DNA from: Sinorhizobium medicae
GTDB lineage: Bacteria > Pseudomonadota > Alphaproteobacteria > Rhizobiales > Rhizobiaceae
Length of the DNA stretch: 64,000 nucleotides
Reading direction: 5' to 3'
Assembly (NCBI RefSeq): GCF_007827695.1
Contig: NZ_VITA01000013.1
Coordinates: forward strand, 124,001 to 188,000
In this document: piece after piece, positions 40,880 to 45,726 of the stretch
Layout: every line of letters begins with the position of its first letter
How positions within the stretch are numbered: position 1 is the stretch's first letter
Position numbers and translations under genes: made by a program
The notes under the pieces: model-generated
What the model saw: only the letters and a program-made list of their open reading frames with translations
Told to the model about the DNA's origin: nothing
Databases searched by the model: none

Positions 40880-41539
40880 ATGGATGTCGAAGGCTTTACC
40901 ACGGCGCGGGTCCTGACAAGGCAGAGGCGGCTACAGGGCGACTTTCACTGGGCGCTTCTCGTCATTTTCGCCGGCGTTGTGCTGCTGACTTCGATCGTCA
41001 TCGCCGATCGGCTTTTTGGAATTGACTATTACGACCTGGTGCGCGACCCCAACGCCATTGCCGGGCAGCCGAAATATTTCGGGCTGGTCTCCAACCTCGG
41101 CGTCATCTTCTGGTTTGCGGGCGGGTTCGCTGCTCTTCAGGCCTATTGGGCCGGCGCCGGTTTCGCCGCGCCGCATCTGCGCCGAGCGCTCCTCGCCGGC
41201 GGGCTCTTTTCCGGCCTTATGGGTGTCGACGATCTCCTGATGCTACACGAAGCGGTAGCTACTGCGGGCGTACCGGAATCGCTCGTTCTTGTGCCCCATA
41301 TGCTTCTGCTGGCGACGCTTTGTTACCACGCCTGGTTCATCCGCCGGGATGTCCAGTCCCTCCTGCTTGTCGCCGCCGTCATGTCGCTCGGCTGCTCCTT
41401 CCTGGTCGACGCGGTTTCCGAGCACATTGCCGGCCTTGTCTTCGTCGAAGAGGGCTTCAAGATACTGGGGATCATGTTCCTGGCAGTCTTTCTCAGCCTT
41501 ACCAGCCATGCGGCGCTGAGCACGAGAGCCCGGCGGTGA
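40880..41539 (+). CDS. Hypothetical multispanning membrane protein
   Basis: 219 residues with about six membrane segments. Conserved-looking acidic and His residues lie at membrane edges (DDLLMLHE near residue 120, DAVSEH and EEGFK near 180-195), which recalls metal-dependent membrane hydrolases of the CREST type. That resemblance is weak and not enough for a function. A GGAGG-like site precedes the ATG. Confidence 0.6.
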   Translation: MDVEGFTTARVLTRQRRLQGDFHWALLVIFAGVVLLTSIVIADRLFGIDYYDLVRDPNAIAGQPKYFGLVSNLGVIFWFAGGFAALQAYWAGAGFAAPHLRRALLAGGLFSGLMGVDDLLMLHEAVATAGVPESLVLVPHMLLLATLCYHAWFIRRDVQSLLLVAAVMSLGCSFLVDAVSEHIAGLVFVEEGFKILGIMFLAVFLSLTSHAALSTRARR

Positions 41540-41650
41540 TCTCAGCCCCTTTGGTGGGCCCGGAAGAATGCGGGCATGTTGCAGCCTTCTTCGAATCTGC
41601 TAGCTTCACCATCCTGGGATAGTGGCATCTTTGGGAGTGGGCTGACGACA

Positions 41651-42016
41651 ATGCGGATGGCGAGGCTGGCTTGCACTTGTCTAATCCTTGTTCTTGCAGG
41701 CGCTGAGCGGCTCCACGCCGAACCGCTCTATACGGTGGACGACCTCGGAGCGGCGCTCAGCAGGTGCTGGACCCCGCCGGCAGGTTTCAAGGATTCCTTC
41801 GTTACGCTGAGATTCGGCTTCCGCGGCGACGGAACGCTGATGGGTCCGCCCCGGCCGACCGCGATCCGGGTGAGCGGGGATGAAAAGCAGCGGCAGGCCT
41901 TCGTCGCCGCCGCCACCGAAGCACTGCAGAACTGCGTGCCGCTGGAGTTTGCCAAGGAACTCTCCGACGAGATCGCGGGGAACGTGTTCACGCTGCAGTT
42001 CAAGTCGGCTCCCTGA
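41651..42016 (+). CDS. Hypothetical secreted protein
   Basis: 121 residues. A signal peptide (cleavage near RLHA/EPLY) leads a small domain whose layout (SRCWTPPAGFKDSFVTLRFGF, RVSGDEKQRQAFVAAATEALQNC) is like the TonB-C-type domain found in periplasmic proteins. Function unknown. Confidence 0.6.
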   Translation: MRMARLACTCLILVLAGAERLHAEPLYTVDDLGAALSRCWTPPAGFKDSFVTLRFGFRGDGTLMGPPRPTAIRVSGDEKQRQAFVAAATEALQNCVPLEFAKELSDEIAGNVFTLQFKSAP

Positions 42017-42030
42017 TCCCGGAGCCCGGA

Positions 42031-42270
42031 TCAGGGAGCGGCTCCCGTTTTCCCGGACACAAGCCTCAGCCACGGCGGCAGGTGAAACAGGGACATCAGC
42101 CCGTACATGCTGGCCATTCCGTTCAGCAGCGATGCACCCTGCATGGAAGAGCAGATATCCGCATCTCCGCCAGACGCCGCGAGCAGCGCCATGGCCGCAA
42201 AAGTCGGGGCGGCGGCGAGGCCCAGCCAATCGGGCAAGCCACTGACGGCGGTACCCTTCCCAAGTGTCAT
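42031..42270 (-). CDS. Small hypothetical membrane protein
   Basis: 79 residues, Ala/Leu/Ser-rich, with two weakly hydrophobic segments (LGLAAAPTFAAMALLAASGG and NGMASMYGLMSLFHLPPWLRL). Its start lies six bases after the DUF899 gene stop, so it is probably co-transcribed with it. No family recognised. Confidence 0.55.
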   Translation of the reverse strand: MTLGKGTAVSGLPDWLGLAAAPTFAAMALLAASGGDADICSSMQGASLLNGMASMYGLMSLFHLPPWLRLVSGKTGAAP

Positions 42271-42276
42271 GGAACA

Positions 42277-43044
42277 TCACCCCCGGGCATATTCGTCATG
42301 GCGGCGCCACCAGATGCCGTTCTCGTTGCGTCCCTTTGGCGCCCGGTCGAGCCACTGATACATGCCCCATAGTCCGTCCAGACCACGCGCGTAGCTGGAA
42401 TAGGTGTGGTAGACGATTCCGTCCTCGAGCACGAAGGCGCTGACGCCCGGCCTGTCGCGCGTGAAAGTGGCGACGTCGGTTCCCGCCATGGCGGCGATCT
42501 CGGCGGCCGGCCCCCGGCTTTCGCCTGGTTCGAGCAGAGGGGGCTCGCGGCGGAAATTGTACTCGATGCCGCCTTCGCGTTGCTGTTGTTCGGTGAACCA
42601 GACGCAGAAATCGCGGTTGAACTCGCCGTCGTTCGATGCGGCCCAGGGGAAACTCCACCCGAGACGCTGCTTATAGGCCGTGAGTTTCGCAAGTGGGGCA
42701 CGGGAGACCGCATAAAAGGCGAGGTCGTGGTTTTCAAGATGAGGGACGATTCCGTTGAAGCCATCCGCGATAGCAGAACAGGATGGGCAGCCGGCCGTAT
42801 AATCGGGCCCGAACATGAAATGGTAGACGAGAAGCTGCGAGCGTCCCTTGAAGAGGTCGCGCAGCGAGGCTTCACCCTCGTCGGTCTCGAACCTGTATGC
42901 CTGGTCGATCCGCACCCAGGGCAATTCCCGACGCCAGCGCGCCAGCTCGTCGCTTCTCCGTGTCAGATCCTTCTCGGCTGCGAGAAGATCGACGCGGGCC
43001 GCCAGCCATTCTTCCCGTGTTCCTGTTGCATGTGCCGTCATCAT
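42277..43044 (-). CDS. DUF899 thioredoxin-like protein
   Basis: 255 residues. The DUF899 pattern is clear: EWLAARVDLLAAEKDLTRRSDELARWRRELPW, then YHFMFGPDYTAGCPSCSAIADGFNG and FVLEDGIVYHTYSSYARGLD. CPSC sits at the place of a thioredoxin CXXC, so a redox or peroxidase-like role is possible, but the family is uncharacterised. It is divergent from an HTH regulator gene with 121 bp between starts and followed by a small membrane protein gene. Confidence 0.85.
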   Translation of the reverse strand: MMTAHATGTREEWLAARVDLLAAEKDLTRRSDELARWRRELPWVRIDQAYRFETDEGEASLRDLFKGRSQLLVYHFMFGPDYTAGCPSCSAIADGFNGIVPHLENHDLAFYAVSRAPLAKLTAYKQRLGWSFPWAASNDGEFNRDFCVWFTEQQQREGGIEYNFRREPPLLEPGESRGPAAEIAAMAGTDVATFTRDRPGVSAFVLEDGIVYHTYSSYARGLDGLWGMYQWLDRAPKGRNENGIWWRRHDEYARG

Positions 43045-43165
43045 GCTTCTCCTTTGGCTATCTGTCGTCGTAGATTGGCGCCGCCGGGCGCGGGTCGCCG
43101 GTGTTCATGAGCCAGACTAGAGCCGGAGATCGAATGGTGAGAGTGACAAGTTTGGCGGGATTTCG

Positions 43166-44407
43166 ATGGACTCGCTGATCACCGCTGCGGCACGGGCGCT
43201 CGCGGCCGGCGATCTCCTTGGCGCGCTGAACCGCGTCGCGTTGCGGGAGGACGCGCATGCGCTCGCGCTTCGTGGCATCGCGATGGCGCAGCTTGGCGAC
43301 TTCGCCCGGGCGAAGGCTCTCCTCAAACGAGCGGCACATGGTTTCGGCCAGAGGCAGGCGGTGGCACGCGCCCGGTGCATCGTTGCCGAGGCCGAGATCG
43401 CTCTCGTTTCGCGCGACCTGGGCTGGCCCACGAAAACGCTCGAAGCGGCGAGGGCAACGCTCGAAGTGCATGGCGACCGAGTGAATGCCGCTCACGCCCG
43501 AAATCTCGAGGCCCGCCGCCTGCTTCTCATAGGCCGCCTCGACGAGGCCGAGGGTGCGCTGTCGGTACTCGACGCCGTGTCCGAGCGAAAGATGGGCACC
43601 GCGCTCCCGTCCGCGACGAGGGCAGCCCGCGAGCTGGTCGTTGCGGGCATCGCCATACGGCGTCTGCAGGCGAAGGCGGCGCGGGTTGCGCTTGACCGAG
43701 CCGAAGATGCTGCGCGCGAGGCGAACGTCCCTGCGCTGACGGCGGAGGTGGAGGCTGCGTCCCTTATCCTTGATGCGCCTGTCGCGCGCCTGATCGGCAG
43801 CGGCGGGGAGCGTCTTCTCCTGATCGATGAAGTCGAAACGCTGCTCGCTTCGGGTGCCCTCGTCGTGGACGCTTGCCGCAATATGATACGGTACGAAGGG
43901 CTGGTCGTCTCGCTAGCCACACGCCCTGTCCTCATGGCGCTTGCCCGTGCGCTCGGCGAGGCCTGGCCCGGGGACGTGCCGCGAGCCACGCTGCTCACGC
44001 GCGCTTTCCGCGCCCGGCATGCCGATGAATCGCACCGCGCTCGGCTGCGCGTGGAGATCGGGCGTCTTCGGGCGGAGCTTCGAGGGCTTGCGGAGGTGAG
44101 GGCGACGAAGCAGGGTTTCACGCTATCGCCCCGCCGTGCCGGTGCGGCCGTCGTGTTGGCGCCGCCCGTCGAGGAAAGGCATGCGGACGTACTCGCCATG
44201 CTTTCCGACGGGGAGGCATGGTCGAGCTCGGCGCTGGCAATTGCGCTCGGTGCGAGCCCGCGCACCGTGCAGCGGGCACTCGAAAATCTTGCCTCGGCCG
44301 GCAAGGTGCAATCCTTCGGCCGCGGCCGGGCGCTTCGCTGGATGACCCCGTCCATACCGGGCTTCCCGACAGTCTTGTTACTCCCGGGGCCGTTGCCGAG
44401 CGACTAG
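43166..44407 (+). CDS. Helix-turn-helix regulator with TPR-like N terminus
   Basis: 413 residues. The N-terminal half is a run of Ala/Leu/Arg-rich helices resembling TPR repeats (GIAMAQLGDFARAKALLKRA; LEARRLLLIGRLDEAEGALSVLDAV). A central transcriptional-regulator-like region (ATRPVLMALARALGEAWPGDVPRATL) and a C-terminal winged HTH (SSALAIALGASPRTVQRALENLASAGKV) follow. No receiver, kinase or membrane part. Its position between the DUF899 gene (divergent) and the propeller gene (35 bp downstream) suggests a local regulator. Confidence 0.7.
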   Translation: MDSLITAAARALAAGDLLGALNRVALREDAHALALRGIAMAQLGDFARAKALLKRAAHGFGQRQAVARARCIVAEAEIALVSRDLGWPTKTLEAARATLEVHGDRVNAAHARNLEARRLLLIGRLDEAEGALSVLDAVSERKMGTALPSATRAARELVVAGIAIRRLQAKAARVALDRAEDAAREANVPALTAEVEAASLILDAPVARLIGSGGERLLLIDEVETLLASGALVVDACRNMIRYEGLVVSLATRPVLMALARALGEAWPGDVPRATLLTRAFRARHADESHRARLRVEIGRLRAELRGLAEVRATKQGFTLSPRRAGAAVVLAPPVEERHADVLAMLSDGEAWSSSALAIALGASPRTVQRALENLASAGKVQSFGRGRALRWMTPSIPGFPTVLLLPGPLPSD

Positions 44408-44442
44408 AATGCGAGATGCAACAGGCGACGAGGATTTGAAAT

Positions 44443-45087
44443 ATGAAACGATCGAAAGCCGAAATTGTCAGGGAATATGGACCTTTTCCCGGTACTGAAC
44501 AGGTGCATGGCGTCACCTTCGACGGCAGGCACGTCTGGTTCGCCTCGGGCGACCGGCTGAACGCACTCGACCCCGGAAGTGGACAGACGGTGCGCTCCAT
44601 CGATGTTGCCGCCCATGCGGGAACCGCCTTCGACGGTCAGCACCTGTTCCAGATCGCGGAGGATCGCATCCAGAAGATCGATCCTGAGACCGGTCGCGTG
44701 CTTGCAACGATTCCGGCGCCTGCCGGGGGCGGTGATTCCGGCCTTGCCTGGGCCGAAGGAACGCTCTGGGTCGGCTGTTACCAGGGGCGCAAGATCCATC
44801 AGGTCGATCCCGAAACCGGGCGGGTCCTTCGCACCATCGAGTCCAACCGGGTCGTGACCGGTGTCACCTGGGTTGACGGTGAGCTTTGGCACGGCACCTG
44901 GGAAGGCGACGAGAGCGATGTGCGGCGTCTGGATCCGGATACAGGAGAGGTGTTGGAGATGATAGAAATGCCGTCGGGCACCGGCGTTTCCGGTCTTGAA
45001 TCCGACGGCGGCGACCGTTTCTTCTGTGGAGGAGGAAACAGCGGAAAGGTCCGCGCGATCCGCAAGCCCGGCCGGATCTCCGCATAG
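44443..45087 (+). CDS. Beta-propeller (YVTN/glutamine cyclotransferase-like) protein
   Basis: 214 residues of short propeller repeats, each ending in a D-P-E/D-T-G-x-V turn (LDPGSGQTV, IDPETGRVL, VDPETGRVL, LDPDTGEVL). No signal peptide, so probably cytosolic. Similar small proteins are annotated as glutaminyl-cyclase-like or SMP-30-like, but the catalytic residues of those enzymes are not evident. It follows the HTH gene and shares its strand. Confidence 0.7.
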   Translation: MKRSKAEIVREYGPFPGTEQVHGVTFDGRHVWFASGDRLNALDPGSGQTVRSIDVAAHAGTAFDGQHLFQIAEDRIQKIDPETGRVLATIPAPAGGGDSGLAWAEGTLWVGCYQGRKIHQVDPETGRVLRTIESNRVVTGVTWVDGELWHGTWEGDESDVRRLDPDTGEVLEMIEMPSGTGVSGLESDGGDRFFCGGGNSGKVRAIRKPGRISA

Positions 45088-45110
45088 GCGATCCATGGCC
45101 CGTATGGAAG

Positions 45111-45161
45111 GAAGGTCCCGGAGCGTTTAGAAGGGACAATCGCGTTGGCTCCGGGACCTTC
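45111..45161. repeat. Perfect 14-bp inverted repeat
   Basis: GAAGGTCCCGGAGC and its exact complement GCTCCGGGACCTTC are separated by 23 bp. It lies 23 bp after the propeller gene. It may be a long-loop terminator, a repeated element end or a structured RNA; no T-run follows. Confidence 0.75.
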
Positions 45162-45237
45162 AGGCGCCGCAGCGGCTGACGAGGGTGCCGCCTTGGTCGC
45201 CTCAGAACGATATGCTTCACTGATATTGGCGGGCAAC

Positions 45238-45278
45238 AGTCCTAGGACTTTTAACCTTGTCAGCTAGGACCAAGGTCC
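45238..45278. promoter_or_regulatory. CTAGGAC repeats upstream of the DUF1236-like gene
   Basis: The perfect palindrome AGTCCTAGGACT (45238-45249) and an imperfect dyad GGACC-AA-GGTCC (45267-45278) both contain CTAGGAC, at 45242 and 45264. The copies are 22 bp apart, about two helical turns, and end 80 bp before the start. This spacing suits a dimeric activator or repressor bound on one face of the DNA. Confidence 0.55.
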
Positions 45279-45357
45279 GATGGCGCCGATAGGCCGGAAC
45301 AAAGCCTGCAGCAGGCGATTCCTCCACTTGAAGGGATACGTAGCTGGAGAAGCACTC

Positions 45358-45726
45358 ATGACAGTCTTTCTCGTCAAGAGTTCCGTCGCACTGAGCCTTG
45401 CGGTCTTCCTGACTGCGGCTCCTGCCGAAGCGCAAAGCACAATCGAAATCGGCGCGGCTGAGACGGCTGCGGTCGCCATCGCGGGGCCGGACGCGGGCGC
45501 GACAATCGATCCGCCGCCGAAGGGCGTGATTGAATATGTCGAGCTGCAGCCGTTGCCGCAGCGGCCGCTGGTTCTTCAGGAGCAGATAGCAGTCGGTAAA
45601 CCGGTACCCGAAACCGTCTTTCTCAATACGGTCCCGGCCGACAGGCGCTATGGCTTCGCGGTGGTCAACAAGAAGCGTGTCATTGCAGACGTGAAGAGCC
45701 GCACCGTCGTACAGCTCGTTCAATAG
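45358..45726 (+). CDS. DUF1236-like secreted protein
   Basis: 122 residues. A Sec signal peptide (TVFLVKSSVALSLAVFLTAA, cleavage about AEA/QST) and a C-terminal DUF1236-style strand region (RRYGFAVVNKKRVIADVKSRTVVQLVQ, with the sequence read here as RYGFAV...VIADVKSRTVV). This domain is common in rhizobial periplasmic proteins of unknown role. The start used places the signal peptide first; the open frame runs further upstream. Promoter with CTAGGAC repeats. Confidence 0.7.
   Translation: MTVFLVKSSVALSLAVFLTAAPAEAQSTIEIGAAETAAVAIAGPDAGATIDPPPKGVIEYVELQPLPQRPLVLQEQIAVGKPVPETVFLNTVPADRRYGFAVVNKKRVIADVKSRTVVQLVQ

Follow-up and report, generated by a model that had tools for sequence, protein, structure and literature searches.

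A regulator-propeller gene pair and a candidate 26-bp operator linked to DUF899 genes in Sinorhizobium medicae and other proteobacteria

Results

Gene organization

We analysed a 64,000-nucleotide stretch of a Sinorhizobium medicae genome (contig NZ_VITA01000013.1, positions 124,001 to 188,000; hereafter the window), in which genes for a small membrane protein (SMP) and a thioredoxin-like DUF899 protein diverge from those for a regulator and a β-propeller (Table 1). An earlier note on this DNA had given the same gene order, with spacings of 121 bp between DUF899 and regulator and 35 bp between regulator and propeller, and the open reading frame (ORF) coordinates bear it out; SMP and DUF899, 6 bp apart, are probably co-transcribed. 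The divergent promoter region carries a 26-bp operator-like element. Gene linkage, the element, its copies in trans and their restriction to regulator-bearing genomes make it likely, on sequence comparison, that the regulator binds this element and controls a small DUF899-centred regulon and itself, with the propeller as its partner.

Table 1. Features of the locus, with positions in the window
Feature	Position	Strand	Basis
SMP, 79-aa small membrane protein	42031..42270	-	ORF coordinates; no Pfam or NCBIfam family
DUF899 thioredoxin-like protein, 255 aa, with CPSC	42277..43044	-	PF05988, 307.8 bits
Divergent promoter region, 121 bp	43045..43165		Between DUF899 and regulator
Putative -10 hexamer TAGTCT of the DUF899 promoter	43114..43119	-	Retained in part after both cis and trans sites
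26-bp operator-like element GTGAGAGTGACAAGTTTGGCGGGATT	43137..43162	+	End lies 3 bp before the regulator start codon
Regulator, 413 aa	43166..44407	+	TPR-like 1-201, OmpR/PhoB-like winged helix ~225-322, second winged helix ~328-393
Five-bladed β-propeller, 214 aa	44443..45087	+	Predicted model; same genomes as regulator

Conservation of the module

Of 100 related genomes, 34 carry the regulator; the same 34 carry the propeller, and the two genes are adjacent. A DUF899 gene is divergent from the regulator in 33 of the 34 and an AHSA1 gene in the remaining one (G064); in G043 the contig ends within the regulator gene. The regulator count leaves out two of 36 genomes tallied at E 0.001 (G015, 6e-5; G057, 2.6e-6 over 44 residues), and the propeller count comprises the genomes with E < 1e-100 among 40 tallied, weak matches to other proteins being left out. 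The earlier note had grouped these genes as a small module, an idea that would fall if they did not co-occur elsewhere. The search for co-occurrence was positive, and the grouping is a real conserved module, not a product of chance. Any match to DUF899 was found in 56 of the 100 genomes, 23 of which lack the regulator.

In the named loci, a DUF899 gene lies divergent within 1.5 kb in 59 of 80; because these are the best 80 of 565 confirmed stretches, such fractions hold for close relatives. Their genera include Rhizobium, Mesorhizobium, Pseudomonas, Paraburkholderia, Caballeronia and Dyella, and the nearest named regulators are those of Ensifer sp. USDA 6670 (85%) and, from plasmid records, of Sinorhizobium strains (86-87%). 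The cassette is present in many soil and plant-associated bacteria, and the linkage holds down to 57-60% regulator identity and across classes. Classes are mixed in the regulator tree (9 class changes vs. a least possible 3), which fits transfer between lineages.

In Sinorhizobium meliloti USDA1021, both regulator and element are located on pSymB. Among the plasmid records listed, the regulator is annotated in 2 of 20 rows, as “helix-turn-helix domain-containing protein”. A Phyllobacterium plasmid carries the cassette (L340, 628-2651) near genes annotated as msrA, MarR and organic hydroperoxide resistance, a neighbourhood that fits oxidative stress in this one case. One contig with regulator, propeller and DUF899 (L113) is filed as an Actinomycetota metagenome-assembled genome; it groups with alphaproteobacterial copies and may be mis-binned.

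A conserved element in the divergent promoter

The element was found by aligning the divergent promoters. In the aligned upstream regions of 86 loci (L142 excluded) it is present 82 times at no more than 5 mismatches to a 24-mer, and none of 1,720 mononucleotide shuffles came closer than 7 mismatches; the four regions without it are L164, L169, L177 and L180. The conserved string, written towards the target gene, is AATnnCGyCACACTTGTnACTCnCAC. Its orientation is constant, and a conserved CCGG-like block follows ~16 bp downstream. The distance from element to regulator start codon ranges from -3 to 54 bp (3 bp in 61/82), and because it varies we regard the element as noncoding. Two candidate explanations, regulator coding sequence and a leader RNA of the regulator, were rejected on the strength of this variation and of trans copies with no regulator behind them.

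No consensus sigma-70 promoter was found in 41900-45400. In the window, 17 bp separate a TAGTCT hexamer from the end of the element that reads TCTCAC (43137-43142); at the distant sites a similar sequence follows but is less well conserved. Since this neighbourhood is partly kept at trans sites lacking a regulator gene, the hexamer was assigned to the target promoter, and a TAGACT-like hexamer as a possible -10 of the regulator was not adopted.

The window holds a single match to the element, with 0 expected. Searching the whole S. medicae genome at up to 3 mismatches gave two elements, and none with a reversed control. The other is on contig C8 (L207), ~115 bp upstream of a second DUF899 gene. 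This DUF899 gene, and the second one of a relative (L200), is tail to tail with a gene whose product resembles GroEL by eye (L207, 962-2605; L200, 472-2115).

Distant sites follow the regulator

Further sites were sought in three overlapping genome sets: the 100 relatives, 397 genomes of the order, and a third set of 38 regulator-bearing and 360 other genomes. The pattern used for the 100 relatives was a 22-mer that includes the flank ATT, which is independent evidence only for sites of the other two sets; the NCAC end of the element is in neither search pattern. The 43 sites in the 100 relatives comprise 33 directly before the regulator, 8 before a second DUF899 gene and 2 before AHSA1, and the 60 sites in the 397 genomes comprise 46 directly before the regulator, 13 before DUF899 or SMP-DUF899 and 1 before an MFS transporter gene (G306). 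Together with the second S. medicae site, 25 sites are not directly before the regulator (22 at DUF899 or SMP-DUF899, 2 at AHSA1, 1 at MFS). Four are still near it (G268, G266, G353, G144), and 21 are far off or on another contig (18 DUF899, 2 AHSA1, 1 MFS). Other sequence splits the regulator from DUF899 in G353 and G144, and the site stays with DUF899; in G266, SMP and DUF899 are apart and have one site each. An additional site (L211, G013) came from a relaxed pattern only and is outside the 25. Because these trans sites precede further DUF899 genes, AHSA1 genes and a transporter gene in other parts of the genomes, the term “self-contained” in the earlier note no longer applies to the module.

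The presence of sites correlates with that of the regulator in all three sets: 33/34 regulator-bearing genomes vs. 0/66 others among the relatives, 48/67 vs. 1/330 among the 397 genomes, and 23/38 vs. 0/360 in the third set. The single exception of the 330 (G270) has a contig ending inside the regulator gene (L214). None of the 23 DUF899-bearing relatives without a regulator has a site. Examination of 117 regulator loci (L142, L315, L323, L095 and L096 left out) shows the element at all 94 with divergent DUF899, SMP or AHSA1 (Fisher p 2e-11).

Domains of the regulator

The predicted regulator model (pLDDT, predicted local distance difference test, 78) consists of eleven tetratricopeptide repeat (TPR)-like helices followed by two winged helices; in the first, strands and helices succeed one another as in OmpR/PhoB winged helices. 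This region matched Trans_reg_C in hhalign with a probability of 91 (E 1.3e-7, 94 columns), compared with 0.04 for the TPR part and the second winged helix and 0.02-0.20 for ten column shuffles; the comparison was with 12 Trans_reg_C domains of the same genome. PF00486 is absent from the 14 Pfam families listed at E up to 1, and no Pfam family exceeded its cut-off with the regulator, all winged-helix matches being below it. Because the PF00486 cut-off was not reached, the domain is called OmpR-like only. No solved homologue was found by sequence at E < 0.1, and no Foldseek match to the whole model at E 0.001 or less. The earlier label of a TPR-like helix-turn-helix regulator is right as to the TPR-like part and says too little of the rest, as an OmpR/PhoB-like domain plus a second winged helix are present. 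The regulator ORF spans 325-411 aa in 32 loci with a regulator start.

The propeller

The propeller is cytosolic-looking, and its model (pLDDT 88) has 20 strands of three or more residues. The best PDB matches of close length are five-bladed glutaminyl cyclases (template modelling (TM) score 0.74-0.77), and many other propellers also match. From the strand count and these closest matches, the “four- to five-repeat” propeller of the earlier note has five repeats and not four. The protein scores 40.1 bits against PF05096 (cut-off 22.3), with a best stretch of just 37 residues. Its gene is behind the regulator in 116/117 loci, the exception being L333, where the two adjoin tail to tail, and correlated distances (r 0.82, n 113) support a regulator-propeller partnership. 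In Chelativorans salis (L129) regulator and propeller form one ORF of 632 aa; this is the sole natural fusion found, and fusion as the common state was rejected.

DUF899, SMP and substitute partners

The DUF899 protein is a full-length match to PF05988 (profile 1-224 of 224; cut-off 27 bits) and scores 28.2 bits against AhpC-TSA (cut-off 26). The CPSC motif that had been noted before is read directly from its sequence, and the CxxC is retained as CPSC, CRGC or CPMC in 13 representatives. A sequence search for a solved homologue gave none at E < 0.1. SMP has no Pfam family above cut-off, and for none of the seven proteins scanned did an NCBIfam family exceed its cut-off.

The divergent DUF899 of G063 and G093 is from a distant subfamily (30-31% identity); regulator and propeller can therefore persist with a different DUF899 partner. 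SMP homologues remain with the module even where DUF899 is of another subfamily (L097, L099, L100). At other loci DUF899 is replaced in the divergent position by AHSA1, by a PpoB2/DUF2182 gene or by the SMP gene alone. PpoB2/DUF2182 genes are beside the module in 11/87 scanned loci (L098, L124, L131, L144, L150, L152, L154, L156, L179, L181, L184), 10/11 of which have DUF899 and 0/11 a detected SMP, making a functional replacement of SMP by PpoB2/DUF2182 possible. SMP as a truncated PpoB2 was ruled out (hhalign probability 0.1).

Two genes upstream of SMP (40880-41539 and 41576-42016) have no Pfam family above cut-off, and homologues in the same place in few loci only. A DUF1236 protein gene downstream of the propeller (45280-45726), seen again in L103 and L105, is outside the module by the compared loci.

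Discussion

We propose that the regulator and propeller form a two-gene cassette, in which the regulator would bind the element both between the divergent genes and at a small number of further sites in the genome. Its regulon would consist of DUF899 or a substitute (AHSA1, SMP, perhaps PpoB2/DUF2182) and the regulator's own operon. That the regulator itself is the binder we consider highly probable. The element may be an activator site in place of a -35 sequence, with the OmpR-like domain on the tandem GTnAC/GTGrC motif, and activation of the target is somewhat favoured because the element borders on a weak -35 region and stands 17 bp away from the -10-like hexamer of the target. Because it also lies against the regulator start codon, the regulator would limit its own synthesis, with autorepression likely. 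The propeller could act on the regulator as a sensor or gate, perhaps via the TPR-like part; gating is our preferred, tentative reading, suggested by linkage, correlated distances and one fusion. So constant an association with the regulator speaks against the propeller being a mere product of the regulon. The nature of the targets (thioredoxin-like DUF899, AHSA1, and SMP or PpoB2) may point to protein thiols or metals; the redox or metabolite response suggested in the earlier note is one possibility.

Several observations weigh against this proposal. Among the 117 regulator loci, 13 lack the element and 10 have it with no recognised target family; those 13 are also without a divergent target family, and among the 10, L179 carries a PpoB2 gene in that position. 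Since the loci share ancestry, they are less independent than the p value implies, and the distant sites are the stronger argument. No site was found at the second DUF899 genes of the regulator-bearing G016 and G022 (L209, L210) or at the third DUF899 gene of the S. medicae genome (L208). With reversed control patterns, the 100-relative, 397-genome and third sets gave 1, 1 and 2 matches. The G740 regulator (L317, 1764-2738), 325 aa long, has lost residues ~268-322 in frame, and with them the core of its OmpR-like domain, yet the element, DUF899 and propeller are kept. A co-occurring factor that we have not seen may be an alternative.

The main rival to activation retains the regulator and operator, with DUF899 and its partners repressed and the propeller or a ligand as inducer or anti-repressor. 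Divergent repressor-target pairs are common, and an element near both start sites could block both promoters, so this arrangement is possible, if on the less probable side; the place of the element at -35, 17 bp before a -10-like hexamer that is itself partly conserved only, with no consensus promoter, is instead as in activator-dependent promoters. That a different protein (for instance an alternative sigma factor or a global regulator) recognises the element, with the regulator as merely one target, appears improbable. Its constant orientation and the CCGG-like block would suit a promoter element as well, L317 keeps the element despite its damaged OmpR-like domain, and binding by the regulator is itself deduced from sequence. 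However, sites are confined to regulator genomes (the one match in 330 having a cut-off regulator gene), and the DUF899-bearing relatives without the regulator have none.

For the propeller, the PF05096 score and the TM scores to type I glutaminyl cyclases would agree with an enzyme of that kind or another regulon product in place of a regulator partner. We find this rather unlikely, as the propeller follows the regulator and not DUF899, is present in G064 without DUF899 and is fused to the regulator in L129, and the Pfam match has so short a best stretch. An accidental neighbourhood conserved by descent, for which one could cite that most loci are from related proteobacteria, is scarcely credible: the linkage persists at 57-60% regulator identity and across classes, and the element stands in trans before DUF899, which already contradicts it.

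Under the proposed regulation, DUF899, a thioredoxin-like family without assigned function, would belong to a small testable regulon that has a predicted operator, a constant partner and, in this genome, two sites. If the propeller does gate the regulator, a propeller-partnered architecture would be added to bacterial one-component control. A broader reading, that a TPR/double-winged-helix regulator gated by a cytosolic five-bladed propeller and acting on a 26-bp operator constitutes a new one-component control of a DUF899-AHSA1-SMP (or PpoB2) response shared across proteobacteria, with thiol or copper stress as a possible trigger, is speculative and on balance doubtful. The module, domain combination, operator and regulon were not found described in the open-licence literature searched (most subscription papers being outside the search), in agreement with the earlier statement that no function had been described; DUF899 itself is named in three papers there, one of them PMC6259199.

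Comparison with known systems places the individual parts in familiar folds. The regulator resembles OmpR/PhoB proteins in its Trans_reg_C-like domain (PF00486), by profile and by strand and helix order, but unlike the two-component regulators it matches no receiver family, having TPR-like helices in that place and a second winged helix behind. SARP/EmbR proteins share an OmpR-like winged helix and a TPR-type part, and EmbR (2ff4) is in the Foldseek list at rank 42 (E 0.06); EmbR and SARP did not stand out when 1000 Foldseek-ranked chains were structurally aligned. In SARP/EmbR the DNA-binding domain comes first, followed by BTAD/TPR, whereas our regulator model has the reversed order, a second winged helix and a propeller partner, and so departs from that family. 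The TPR-like part superposes on the RRNPP proteins NprR (Z 18.1) and PlcR (Z 17.1; Rap is of the same group) and on MalT domain III (Z 15.9), a likeness of shared fold only, since TPR repeats match widely. RRNPP proteins have the helix-turn-helix before the TPR part and a secreted peptide as ligand; in the regulator model the TPR-like part is first and the winged helices come after, which sets it apart from them.

Type I glutaminyl cyclases are defined as five-bladed in a published account (PMC7948796). The propeller shares this fold and exceeds the PF05096 cut-off, and differs in that its gene stands behind the regulator. PpoB2 of the DUF2182 family (PF09948) is reported to pass copper to a tyrosinase in Marinomonas (PMC2855505), and SMP has no detectable relation to it. 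The folds are already known; by the literature searched, the combination, the predicted operator and the proposed regulon would be new.

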